The position numbers were made by a program, and so were the translations under genes. From contig CACEIH010000002.1 of the NCBI GenBank assembly GCA_902559565.1, positions 62,001 through 126,000 of the forward strand: DNA of 64,000 nt, read 5' to 3'. The notes under the pieces were generated by a model. The model was not told the origin of the DNA and did no database searches. It saw only the letters and a list, made by a program, of their open reading frames with translations. Of this stretch, positions 5,799 to 10,530 are shown piece by piece. This DNA comes from an uncultured Pelagibacteraceae bacterium. Its GTDB lineage: Bacteria > Pseudomonadota > Alphaproteobacteria > Pelagibacterales > Pelagibacteraceae. Positions within the stretch are counted from its first letter, which is position 1, and every line of letters starts with the position of its first letter.

Positions 5799-7010
5799 TT
5801 AAACCTTTTCAAAAATTAAAGCTGCATTGGTTCCACCAAAACCAAAACTATTTGACATAACTGCGTTTAAATTTGCTCCAGTTTCTGTTTTAGCTACTAT
5901 TGGAAATTTTTTAGCCTCTTCATCCATTTCATTAATATTAGCTGATCCAGCAATAAAATTATTTTTCATCATAATTAAACAATATATAGCTTCGTGAACA
6001 GAAGCTGCTCCTAATGGGTGTCCCGATAAAGATTTTGTTGAACTAATTTTTGGTATATTAGTTCCAAAAGTCTCTTTTACTGCATTTAGTTCTGTAATAT
6101 CTCCAACAGGTGTAGAAGTTCCATGAGTATTAATATAATCAATTTTATTTTTTGCAGTTGCCATTGCCATTTTCATACATCTAATTGCTCCCTCACCAGA
6201 TGGTGCCACCATATCATATCCATCTGAAGTAGCCCCATAACCTGTTAATTCTGCGTATATTTTTGCACCTCTTGCTTTCGCATGCTCATATTCTTCTAGC
6301 ACTAAAACTCCACCACCACCTGCAATAACAAAACCATCTCTAGTTTTATCGTAAGCTCTGGAAGCAGTTTGAGGTGTATCATTATATTTTGATGATAATG
6401 CGGTCATTGCATCAAACATAGCGGTCATTGCCCAATGAATTTCTTCACTTCCTCCAGCAAAGACAACATCTTGTTTTCCCATTTGAATAAGCTCCATTGA
6501 ATTTCCAATACAATGGCCACTTGTTGCACATGCAGAACTCATTGTATAGTTTGTACCTTTTATTTTGAATGGAACAGCAAGAGTTGCTGAAGCTGTACTT
6601 GCCATTGTTCTTGGTACTACAAATGGTCCCATTAATTTTGGTGTTTTTGCTCTTGTCTTATCAGCTGCTAAAATAACATTTTCAATTGATGGACCACCTG
6701 AACCCATAACTATACCAGTTTTGAAATTACTTACTTCATTTTCCTCTAAACCTGAGTCTTTAATCGCTTCTTTCATAGCAATATAATTGTAAGCAGATCC
6801 AGAACCCATAAATCTAATAGTTTTTCTATCTATATGATCTTCAAGCTTGATATTTGGTTTGCCATGAACATGACTTTTTAAATTGTGTTCTTTATATTCC
6901 TCGGCAAAAGTAATTCCTGATTTTGAATTTATTAATGATGAATGTACTTCTTCTTGATTGTTTCCAAGGCAAGAAACTATTCCGAGGCCTGTAATTACTA
7001 CTCTTCTCAT
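5799..7010 (-). CDS. fabB: beta-ketoacyl-ACP synthase I
   Basis: KAS signature [32 protein letters not shown]; between fabI and fabA. Confidence 0.95.
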
Positions 7011-7522
7011 TATTTAAACAACCCTACCTTTAAACTCTCAGCTGAATAAATTTTTTTATCATCAGCTAATAAAACACCATTTGCGAGTCCTACTGTAGTT
7101 CCTCCAGGAGACATAATTTTTTTCATATCTATTTCATATTTCACTAATTTTACATTTTGTAAAACTTCACCAGTAAATTTCACAGTCCCAACTCCTAAAG
7201 CTCTTCCCCTTCCTGGATTTCCTATCCATCCTAGATAAAACCCAACTAACTGCCACATAGCATCGAGACCAAGACAACCAGGCATAACGGGGTCCTCTTT
7301 AAAATGACAATCAAAAAACCAAAGATTTTTTTTAATGTCCAATTCAGCTTTCAATGAGCCTTTATTGAAAGAACCATTATTTTCTTTAATTTCTGTAATT
7401 CTATCAAACATAAGCATTGGTGGAAGTGGTAATTTAGCATTTCCAGGCCCAAAAAGACCTCCATTTCCACAGTTTATAAGCTCATCATATGAGTAGGAGT
7501 TTTTTTTCATAAAATTGAACAT
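7010..7522 (-). CDS. fabA: 3-hydroxydecanoyl-ACP dehydratase
   Basis: FabA signature ([31 protein letters not shown]). The ORF track start (7738) runs into the divergent gene; likely start ATG at 7522 or 7510. Confidence 0.95.
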
Positions 7523-7561
7523 CTTAATACTTGATTTTAATCGATTATAATATACATAAAG

Positions 7562-7578
7562 TTTAGAATTATTATAAA
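7562..7578. promoter_or_regulatory. putative Irr/ICE-type operator upstream of the irr-like gene
   Basis: TTTAGAA-TTA-TTATAAA; 13/14 arm positions match a TTTAGAA-N3-TTCTAAA dyad; same sequence recurs upstream of rubrerythrin. Confidence 0.55.
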
Positions 7579-7583
7579 TTATA

Positions 7584-8012
7584 ATGACAAAAAACCTTGA
7601 ATTTACTGAAAAATTAAGATCTTCTGGACTTAGACCAACAAAACAAAGACTTAAGATATGTGAAGTTTTATTTAATAGAGAAAAAACTTTCCATTTTACA
7701 ATTAATGATCTTGCAAAAAATATATCTGAAAAGCTCAAGGAAAAAATATCATTAGCAACGGTTTATAATACGGTTCACGCTTTTAAAAAAAAAGGATATT
7801 TAAAAGAAATATCAATCAATAGTGATAAAAGTTATTTTGATACAAATATCACCAATCACCATCATTTTTTTGACGAGGATACTAATCAATTAATTGATTG
7901 TGATGATAATCACCTGGATAACGTTAAAATAAAAAAAAATATTACTGGAAAAAAAATTAATTCAATTGAAGTTTTGATTAAAGTTGCAAGTGATAATCAA
8001 AATCAAAATTAA
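7584..8012 (+). CDS. irr: Fur-family transcriptional regulator (Irr/PerR-like)
   Basis: [33 protein letters not shown]...[20 protein letters not shown] winged-helix Fur domain; divergent from fabA as is usual for alphaproteobacterial irr. Confidence 0.8.
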
Positions 8013-8041
8013 TATAATAATTTCAATCACTTACAAACTAC

Positions 8042-8058
8042 ATTATAATTATTCTAAA
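8042..8058. promoter_or_regulatory. putative Irr/ICE-type operator, distal site of rubrerythrin promoter
   Basis: ATTATAA-TTA-TTCTAAA; inverted relative to the next site. Confidence 0.5.
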
Positions 8059-8072
8059 CTATTGACATAAAG

Positions 8073-8089
8073 TTTAGAATCATTATATA
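8073..8089. promoter_or_regulatory. putative Irr/ICE-type operator overlapping the rubrerythrin -10 region
   Basis: TTTAGAA-TCA-TTATATA, downstream of TTGACA (8062-8067); ACATAAAGTTTAGAAT is identical to the sequence upstream of the irr-like gene. Confidence 0.5.
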
Positions 8090-8116: not shown

Positions 8117-8533
8117 ATGTCATTAAAAGGAAGTAAAACAGAGGAAAACCTTAAAGCAGCTTTTGCTGGTGAAAGTCAAGCTAACAGAAGATATTTATAT
8201 TTTGCTCAAAAAGCTGACATCGAGGGTTACAATGATGTTGCTACAGTTTTTAGATCAACTGCCGAAGGTGAAACTGGCCATGCTCATGGTCACTTAGAGT
8301 ATTTAGAGGAAGTTGGTGATCCAGCAACTGGTAAACCAATTGGTGAAACTAAAGCAAACTTAGAGTCTGCTGTAGCTGGTGAGACACATGAATATACTGA
8401 TATGTATCCAGGTATGGCAAAGACAGCAAGAGAAGAAGGATTTGAGGAAATAGCTGATTGGTTTGAAACACTAGCGAAAGCTGAAAAATCACATGCTGGT
8501 AAATTCCAAAAAACTTTAGAGTCTATAAGTTAA
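8117..8533 (+). CDS. rubrerythrin
   Basis: [27 protein letters not shown]...[14 protein letters not shown]; rubrerythrin family diiron ExxH motifs; SD aaggaga. Confidence 0.95.
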
Positions 8534-8602: not shown

Positions 8603-9934
8603 ATGAGCAAAGAGGGTAGTACAGAAGCACCTATAAGACATCCAATAGACTTTGAAAATCCAGATTTTTTAAATCCTGAAAAATTAGATGCTGAGATGAG
8701 GAGAGTATTTGATATTTGTCATGGCTGCAGAAGATGCTTCAACCTTTGTGATTCTTTCCCAAAACTTTTTGATATGATCGATGAGTCAAAAAATGAAGAT
8801 GTAGAAAGTTTATCAAGTAACCAATTTGCTCCTGTTGTTGATGCATGTACGATGTGTGACATGTGTTTTATGACTAAGTGCCCTTATGTACCACCACATG
8901 ATTTTGATTTAGACTTTCCCCATTTAATGCTGAGGTATAGAATGGCACAAAAGAAACAAGGTAAACTGCCTGCTGTTCCCAGACAACTAGCTGAAATTGA
9001 TAGAAACTCAAAAATTGGCGTGATGTTTTCGGGTTTAATTAATTGGATGTCAGATATAAAAAATAAATTTTTTAGAAAAATATTACAAATAATTGCAGGC
9101 ATAGATATTAGAGTTAAATTACCAAAATATAATTCAGAAACTTTTTCAAATTTTTTTAAAAAAAATAATGATAAAATAAATTATGGAAACAAGAAAAGTG
9201 ATAGAAAAGTTGTTGTTTACTCAACATGTTTTGTAAATTTTAATAAAAAAAATACAGGTGTTGCAGCTTTAAAAGTATTGAAGAAAAATGGAGTTGAGGT
9301 TCAGGAGGCGTATCCAGGTTGTTGTGGAATGCCGTTTTTGGAACAAGCTGATTTACCAAAAGTAGTTGAGCAAGCAAAAAAAGTTTCAAAAGATTTGATA
9401 GATTGGATAGACAAAGGCTACACAATAATTACACTTACAGCAAGCTGTGGTCTTATGTTGAAATTTGAATGGCCACTCTTGTTGCCTAAAGATGAAAACA
9501 TTAAAAAGTTGTCATCAAATGTAATGGATATTGACGAATATGTTGTCGATATTGCAAATAATGAGGGTTTAGTTAATGGATTACAAGAGATAGATGGTGG
9601 AGTTACAGTTCACCATGCATGTCATGCAAGAGCTCAAAATATGGGGATAAAGGCTAGAGATATGCTCAAACTAATTCCTAACGTAAAAATCGATGTTGTT
9701 GAAAGATGTGCCGGACACGGTGGAACATTTGGTGTAATGAAAGAAACGCATGACCTAGCTATTAAAGTTGGAAGACCAACAGCAAGACAAATTAAGTTAA
9801 AAAATAATAAATATATGGCATCTGATTGTCCGTTAGCAGGTAAACATCTAAAACAATTAGAGACAGATACAAACATATCAAATGATGAGGCACTACACCC
9901 TATCGAATTAATAGCTAAAAGTTATAGATTATGA
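8603..9934 (+). CDS. (Fe-S)-binding oxidoreductase, GlpC/HdrB-like CCG domain protein
   Basis: CHGCRRCFNLCDSFP and CTMCDMCFMTKCPYVPP cluster motifs plus two CCG-type segments. Confidence 0.88.
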   Translation: MSKEGSTEAPIRHPIDFENPDFLNPEKLDAEMRRVFDICHGCRRCFNLCDSFPKLFDMIDESKNEDVESLSSNQFAPVVDACTMCDMCFMTKCPYVPPHDFDLDFPHLMLRYRMAQKKQGKLPAVPRQLAEIDRNSKIGVMFSGLINWMSDIKNKFFRKILQIIAGIDIRVKLPKYNSETFSNFFKKNNDKINYGNKKSDRKVVVYSTCFVNFNKKNTGVAALKVLKKNGVEVQEAYPGCCGMPFLEQADLPKVVEQAKKVSKDLIDWIDKGYTIITLTASCGLMLKFEWPLLLPKDENIKKLSSNVMDIDEYVVDIANNEGLVNGLQEIDGGVTVHHACHARAQNMGIKARDMLKLIPNVKIDVVERCAGHGGTFGVMKETHDLAIKVGRPTARQIKLKNNKYMASDCPLAGKHLKQLETDTNISNDEALHPIELIAKSYRL

Positions 9935-10530
9935 TTATGCCAAAAGAAAAAAAATTAATCGAAAAAAATGACATCATGCCTATAGATGTTTATACAAGAC
10001 AAAGAAAAGAAATTAGAAAAAAAATTGTTGAATTTAAAAAAGATCGAAGAATACCGCTAGGTCCTTATGCAACTTTTTATTTTGAAAGTTTTGAAACAAT
10101 GTTGGCTCAAGTTCAGGAAATGCTTTATATTGAAAAAGGTGGAGATGAGCAGTTAAAAGATGAACTTGCTGCTTATAATCCTTTAGTGCCAAATGGAAAA
10201 GAATTAACAGCAACTTTAATGTTTGAAATAGATAATCCTGTGTCTAGAGCAACTTTTTTGGGTAAAGTAGGTGGAATAGAGGAAAAAGTTTACATGAAGT
10301 TAGACGATGATTTAATTCATGCAGTGCCAGAAGAAGATGTTGATAGAACTTCTGATGAGGGAAAAGCTTCATCAGTTCAATTTATTCATTTTAAATTTAA
10401 TGACGAGCAAATAAAAAAATTTAAATTAAATTCTTCACAAATAGAAATTGGCATTGATCATAAAGAATATTCTCATTCAACTAAATTAAGCGAACTATCT
10501 ATAAAATCATTATCTAAAGATTTCAATTAG
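9931..10530 (+). CDS. DUF3501 family protein
   Basis: 199 aa, MPIDVYTRQRKEIRKKIVEFKKDRRIPLGPYATFYFESFETMLAQVQEML; follows rubrerythrin/Fe-S oxidoreductase as commonly seen for DUF3501. Confidence 0.8.
   Translation: MIMPKEKKLIEKNDIMPIDVYTRQRKEIRKKIVEFKKDRRIPLGPYATFYFESFETMLAQVQEMLYIEKGGDEQLKDELAAYNPLVPNGKELTATLMFEIDNPVSRATFLGKVGGIEEKVYMKLDDDLIHAVPEEDVDRTSDEGKASSVQFIHFKFNDEQIKKFKLNSSQIEIGIDHKEYSHSTKLSELSIKSLSKDFN

Follow-up and report, generated by a model that had tools for sequence, protein, structure and literature searches.

Comparative analysis of a 64 kb stretch of SAR11 (Pelagibacterales) DNA, hereafter the window, points to a local switch in which the iron response regulator Irr would control its own gene and the peroxidase gene beside it; to this reading, the best explanation of the observations as a whole, we give a probability of roughly 0.7. 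Irr/ICE control of irr and of the neighbouring peroxidase gene is well supported by genome comparison, from which the operators, their conservation and phasing, the adjacency of the genes, and the mutual exclusion and swapping of the peroxidases were read. We also consider it fairly probable that Irr serves here as a dedicated two-promoter peroxide/iron switch with an interchangeable slot (rubrerythrin with its two partners, KatG or Prx5), whose gene has been replaced repeatedly, including at least one move of katG between lineages, behind the same ancient composite of ICE and -35. The host's own assembly is 767 kb long and 59% complete. The features of the window are as follows:

7010-7522, minus strand: fabA, divergent from irr and first of a fabA-fabB-fabI run (ORF and gene order)
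7524-7551, plus strand: predicted irr promoter, TTAATA-16-TATAAT, with a predicted start at about 7558 (consensus scan)
7562-7578, plus strand: ICE at irr, over the predicted start and 5 nt before the ATG (24.4 bits, conservation)
7584-8012, plus strand: irr, Fur-family iron response regulator of 142 aa (NCBIfam IrrA, Pfam FUR, tree)
8042-8058, minus strand: ICE1 of the rubrerythrin promoter, starting 20 nt before the -35 (24.9 bits)
8062-8067, plus strand: -35 TTGACA of the rubrerythrin promoter (sequence, conserved among relatives)
8073-8089, plus strand: ICE2 over the spacer and -10, lineage-specific and carrying the shared 16-mer (17.1 bits)
8117-8533, plus strand: rubrerythrin (rbr) of 138 aa without a rubredoxin domain, the slot occupant (Pfam Rubrerythrin, E 2e-30)
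8603-9934, plus strand: CCG-domain Fe-S protein that travels with rbr (Pfam CCG)
9931-10530, plus strand: DUF3501 protein that travels with rbr (Pfam DUF3501, E 2e-61)

An earlier note on this DNA had reported an identical 16-mer upstream of irr and rubrerythrin, and both exact copies of ACATAAAGTTTAGAAT were confirmed by position (7554-7569 and 8065-8080); when up to two mismatches were allowed, these were two matches against 0.42 expected in 64 kb. The three dyads that it described at 7562-7578, 8042-8058 and 8073-8089 were also found, with 14, 12 and 12 self-complementary positions out of 17 and with 1, 2 and 2 mismatches, respectively, to the 14 positions of TTTAGAANNNTTCTAAA. The inverted arrangement of the two rubrerythrin copies, ATTCTAAACT-N10-AGTTTAGAAT, was correct, and one dyad, 8073-8089, covers the spacer and -10 downstream of TTGACA. 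The emphasis placed on the shared 16-mer did not hold, because this is the least conserved part, and only 14 of the 78 rbr loci have a site of at least 14 bits at the position of its rubrerythrin copy (ICE2), compared with 28 of the 30 katG loci. The ICE dyad consensus is TTTAGAA-N3-TTCTAAA, the form also used in the earlier note; the SAR11 sites have one or two mismatches in its 14 positions and those of many relatives none or one, and the conserved sites are asymmetric, with TTTAGAA in one half and TTATAA in the other.

The rarity of the motif, which the same note had made a test, depended on how strictly it was defined. The loose consensus with up to three mismatches gave 78 matches in the window against a chance expectation of 51 +/- 10 (29% GC), and at three mismatches there was no excess in the host's own genome (655 matches and 675 in the reversed control), so that, genome-wide, the loose form stands at background. 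The stringent pattern STTTAGAAYNRTTNTAA matched this genome only twice, at the irr site and at 8042-8058, with no match in the reversed control; this form clusters at irr, and its off-target matches lie near the control rate. A scoring matrix trained on the orthologous sites of relatives, with the katG and prx promoters left out of the training, gave 24.9 bits to 8042-8058, 24.4 bits to 7562-7578 and 17.1 bits to 8073-8089, and the best remaining match in the 64 kb scored 14.0 bits.

Conservation ahead of orthologues had likewise been set as a test, and the sites proved to be retained across SAR11 relatives. In about 110 of these, the irr ICE is near-invariant and lies just 5' of the ATG, and ICE1 is near-invariant while the spacers change. 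The stretch between the promoter and the ICE at irr varies by about 15 bp between clades and the ICE itself is unchanged; it was lost in a few diverged relatives, and no ICE ahead of irr was found in the sister SAR11 family, which makes it a feature of the window's family. The call of the irr promoter scores no better than those on shuffled sequences, and the block is conserved among relatives, as is the divergent fabA beside irr in nearly all of them. The placement of the irr ICE over the predicted start suggests that irr may be negatively autoregulated.

At the peroxidase promoters, ICE1 scores at least 14 bits in all 78 rbr loci and begins exactly 20 nt before TTGA. The matrix, untrained on either promoter type, also detected ICE sites in 29 of the 30 katG and in all three prx promoters. 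The distance from ICE1 to the -35 is 20-21 nt in 22 katG promoters and 20 nt in the three prx promoters, and a second ICE usually lies 9-11 nt past the start of the -35 in both types. Sites of the ICE type are thus located at the irr, rbr, katG and prx promoters. The same arrangement was looked for in 39 loci, drawn from a second SAR11 family and from further families of Alphaproteobacteria with a GC content of up to 71%; as the class-level loci are the best-scoring Irr matches, the fractions that follow are not a census. Here, rbr directly follows irr in 33 of the 39 loci, an ICE with up to two mismatches in 14 positions stands behind the irr stop codon in 25 (compared with 0.46% of shuffles), and a -35 TTGAC is found exactly 20 nt past the ICE start in 26. 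Judged from these loci, the promoter of the peroxidase slot appears to be an old alphaproteobacterial composite of ICE and -35.

The regulator, called irr-like in the earlier note, deserves the name. Its Pfam FUR score of 77.7 bits (cut-off 23.1) places it in the Fur superfamily fold. Against NCBIfam IrrA it scores 133.6 bits (E 4e-39), under the cut-off of 150, and against the second NCBIfam Irr model 122.4 bits, under the cut-off of 170; the Irr proteins of other small-genome Alphaproteobacteria also fall under the cut-off, which is an annotation threshold and not a biological criterion. In a tree based on few columns and a single kind of outgroup, it groups with alphaproteobacterial Irr and is split from two SAR11 Fur paralogues at 100/100. 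The HHH (HXH) histidine cluster for heme (H92-H94) is retained and aligned across all of the Irr rows, and the Fur rows have HHDH. The N-terminal Cys-Pro heme regulatory motif is absent from the SAR11 Irr sequence; this motif is a feature of Bradyrhizobium (PMC4700492), and diversity at the second heme site has been reviewed (PMC7762939). In one relative (L294, G349:C1, 1641-2064), an apparent frameshift splits irr with both ICE sites and rbr intact, which is either an assembly error or a recent loss.

The rubrerythrin of the window has no cysteine, and its nearest solved relatives are rubrerythrins of 140-144 aa, followed by sulerythrin. The absence of cysteine and of a rubredoxin domain contrasts with the description of SAR11 Rbr as dependent on an iron-sulfur centre (PMC5069961). 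The CCG and DUF3501 proteins may supply electrons to rubrerythrin; wherever rbr loci were examined, the three genes occurred together, and none of them is present in G307, a complete genome with katG.

The association with a peroxide/iron module proposed earlier was borne out by the neighbour of irr, which is rubrerythrin, KatG or Prx5 in all readable congeneric genomes. Among 201 such genomes, 61 have rbr and 94 have katG, and no genome has the two together (Fisher p 2e-22). The slot gene lies 60-123 bp after irr, katG occupies the position where rbr is absent, and the slot gene is adjacent and co-directional in all 146 genomes that have irr plus rbr or katG. Only four irr genomes carry neither; three have a Prx5-type peroxiredoxin (Pfam Redoxin), and the fourth (G353) shows only an irr fragment at a contig start. 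On the Irr tree, a quick one with few columns, the slot content changed at least four times (starred branches), and seven to nine times in the best tree. A transfer of katG between SAR11 lineages is suggested by genomes G384 and G307, which share 96% of KatG and 63% of Irr, and G015 and G431 share 79% of Irr and 56% of KatG, which indicates that katG entered the slot more than once. In one locus (L224, G116), irr is followed by a single ICE, Prx5 and then rbr, possibly an intermediate with two peroxidases under a common operator. Another (L194, G100:C23) has a perfect ICE and a phased -35 about 28 nt past the irr stop codon with rbr absent, which makes it either an orphan operator or one with a different short gene behind it. 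A rubrerythrin was also seen amid genes resembling those of T4-like phages (clamp loader, co-chaperonin; L291, G057:C70, 1646-2071) and is possibly a phage-carried peroxidase gene; the ICE-like site 5' of it was rejected because a terminator-like hairpin separates the site from the gene.

In the mechanism that we propose, Irr would bind ICE at its own promoter and at that of the adjacent peroxide scavenger. With the start of ICE1 placed precisely 20 nt ahead of the -35, Irr on this site would lie next to the hexamer or cover it, and in some lineages ICE2 would add cover of the spacer and -10. With iron or heme short, Irr would repress the peroxidase; plentiful heme, or peroxide removing Irr, would bring relief, and the iron-costly peroxidase would be made once its metallation is feasible and the enzyme is needed. 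Irr would also repress its own gene. The SAR11 regulon would have shrunk to essentially two promoters, with several replacements of the gene that follows the operator. We infer Irr as the binder, heme or peroxide as the signal and repression as the sign from relatives: in Bradyrhizobium japonicum, mbfA and bfr are repressed by Irr, a protein that is lost or degraded with heme or H2O2 (PMC4902296), and in Rhodobacter sphaeroides it binds the mbfA and ccpA promoters (PMC3413700).

The sign of the regulation is the point on which the strongest alternative turns, namely that Irr, bound 5' of the -35, recruits RNA polymerase at low iron and activates the peroxidase gene, with ICE2, where present, capping its expression. 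The position of ICE is compatible with either sign: the fixed phase of about -46 would fit an activator too, the exact 20-nt ICE/-35 phase across the class speaks for one, and whether Irr activates or represses is known to depend on the ICE position (PMC7762939). In strain HTCC1062, moreover, iron limitation raised rbr mRNA 1.57-fold, with no response of irr (PMC2864753), a rise that favours activation and argues against simple repression by apo-Irr. Against this, the -35 is a consensus one, which is unusual at activator-dependent promoters, an ICE covers the spacer and -10 in 28 of the 30 katG promoters, and the characterised Irr targets of like function are repressed (PMC3413700, PMC4902296). 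An ICE that abuts a consensus -35, together with a second one over the spacer and -10, favours repression by blocking of the polymerase; by analogy, we regard repression as the probable sign and activation as rather unlikely. It is far less likely that the dyads are operators of the Fur paralogue, which is present in every SAR11 genome, or of another factor, with irr merely linked to them. Irr binding is predicted here from the sequence, which leaves some room for such a factor, but the dyad matches the known Irr motif, the sites lie at and beside irr and track it through the class, and the katG of the single complete genome without irr (G198) has no ICE. That the dyads are chance AT-rich palindromes or promoter elements, as the background frequency of the loose consensus might imply, is already contradicted by the near-invariance of the sites amid changing flanks, their retention in GC-rich relatives, their fixed phasing and the restriction of the stringent pattern to the irr and ICE1 sites.

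PerR-type Fur-family peroxide regulators adjoin their peroxidase genes, and the predicted system works alike in that a Fur-family repressor would control a peroxidase and itself; unlike PerR, the SAR11 protein is Irr by its tree position and HHH cluster, the operator is ICE and the expected signal is heme or iron plus peroxide. The B. japonicum system (PMC4902296) also combines an Irr-family regulator with an ICE-type dyad, at mbfA and bfr, and a target of the ferritin/rubrerythrin superfamily tied to peroxide and iron stress. However, B. japonicum Irr is global, has the heme regulatory motif and acts on unlinked targets, whereas SAR11 Irr lacks the motif and would act on about two promoters, with an adjacent target that is a soluble short rubrerythrin, KatG or Prx5 instead of mbfA or bfr. 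R. sphaeroides Irr (PMC3413700) is similar in having few predicted ICE targets, both peroxide-related, and an Irr-box at or near the start; the target genes differ, and an interchangeable slot was not described there. It was also previously found that katG occurs in most offshore Pelagibacteraceae genera and is absent from coastal ones (PMC12636525); rubrerythrin is unmentioned in that work, and the reciprocal distribution, the irr linkage and the common operator are added by our analysis. Irr and ICE, ferritin-like or peroxide genes under Irr control and the katG of offshore SAR11 are already known. The literature searched, outside of which lies a key comparative paper from 2006, yielded no account of the reciprocal slot for rbr, katG or prx, of the operator that stays constant there, of the ICE/-35 phase throughout the class or of a regulon of two promoters; the prediction of ICE in SAR11 may be partly old.

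SAR11 bacteria are among the most abundant cells of the surface ocean, are genetically hard to manipulate and have few regulators. In these bacteria, a global iron regulator has apparently been reduced to a single local decision, i.e., when to make the Irr-linked peroxide scavenger, and the slot connects iron status with the matter of which of the SAR11 bacteria detoxify H2O2. The exclusive choice between rubrerythrin, KatG and Prx5 behind one operator offers a clean marker for niche studies, and the invariant ICE/-35 spacing across Alphaproteobacteria provides a testable rule of Irr action.

The genome-wide searches point in the same direction, as SAR11 Irr appears to control little beyond irr itself and the adjacent peroxidase gene. 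The complete genomes G012 and G307 have intergenic sites scoring at least 16 bits at irr and at its slot gene only, rbr in the former and katG in the latter, with a few equally high matches within coding sequence. The stringent matches listed, 150 in 84 genomes, include 122 at irr; the remaining 28 correspond to 0.33 per genome, compared with 0.26 in the control (201 genomes). Extra regulon members were rejected, as most of the off-irr matches examined lay in coding sequence, were limited to a clade or lacked the -35 phase. Two loci (L324 and L325; G391:C10, G024:C15) have an ICE, with TTGAA as the hexamer at the +20 phase, before a sugar ABC binding-protein gene; this promoter was discarded as a general Irr target since only two related genomes have it. 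A long non-coding stretch in another genome (L329, G409:C20, 700-1600) contains repeats of two kinds, TTTAGAANNNTTCTAA-like dyads with T runs after them and GTGTTAGAGA. Finally, a 1-Cys peroxiredoxin gene unlinked to irr carries an ICE 19 bp upstream (L323, G407:C3, 429-1124); confined to one genome, it was set aside as a general target, and it is possibly a lineage-specific third target of Irr.
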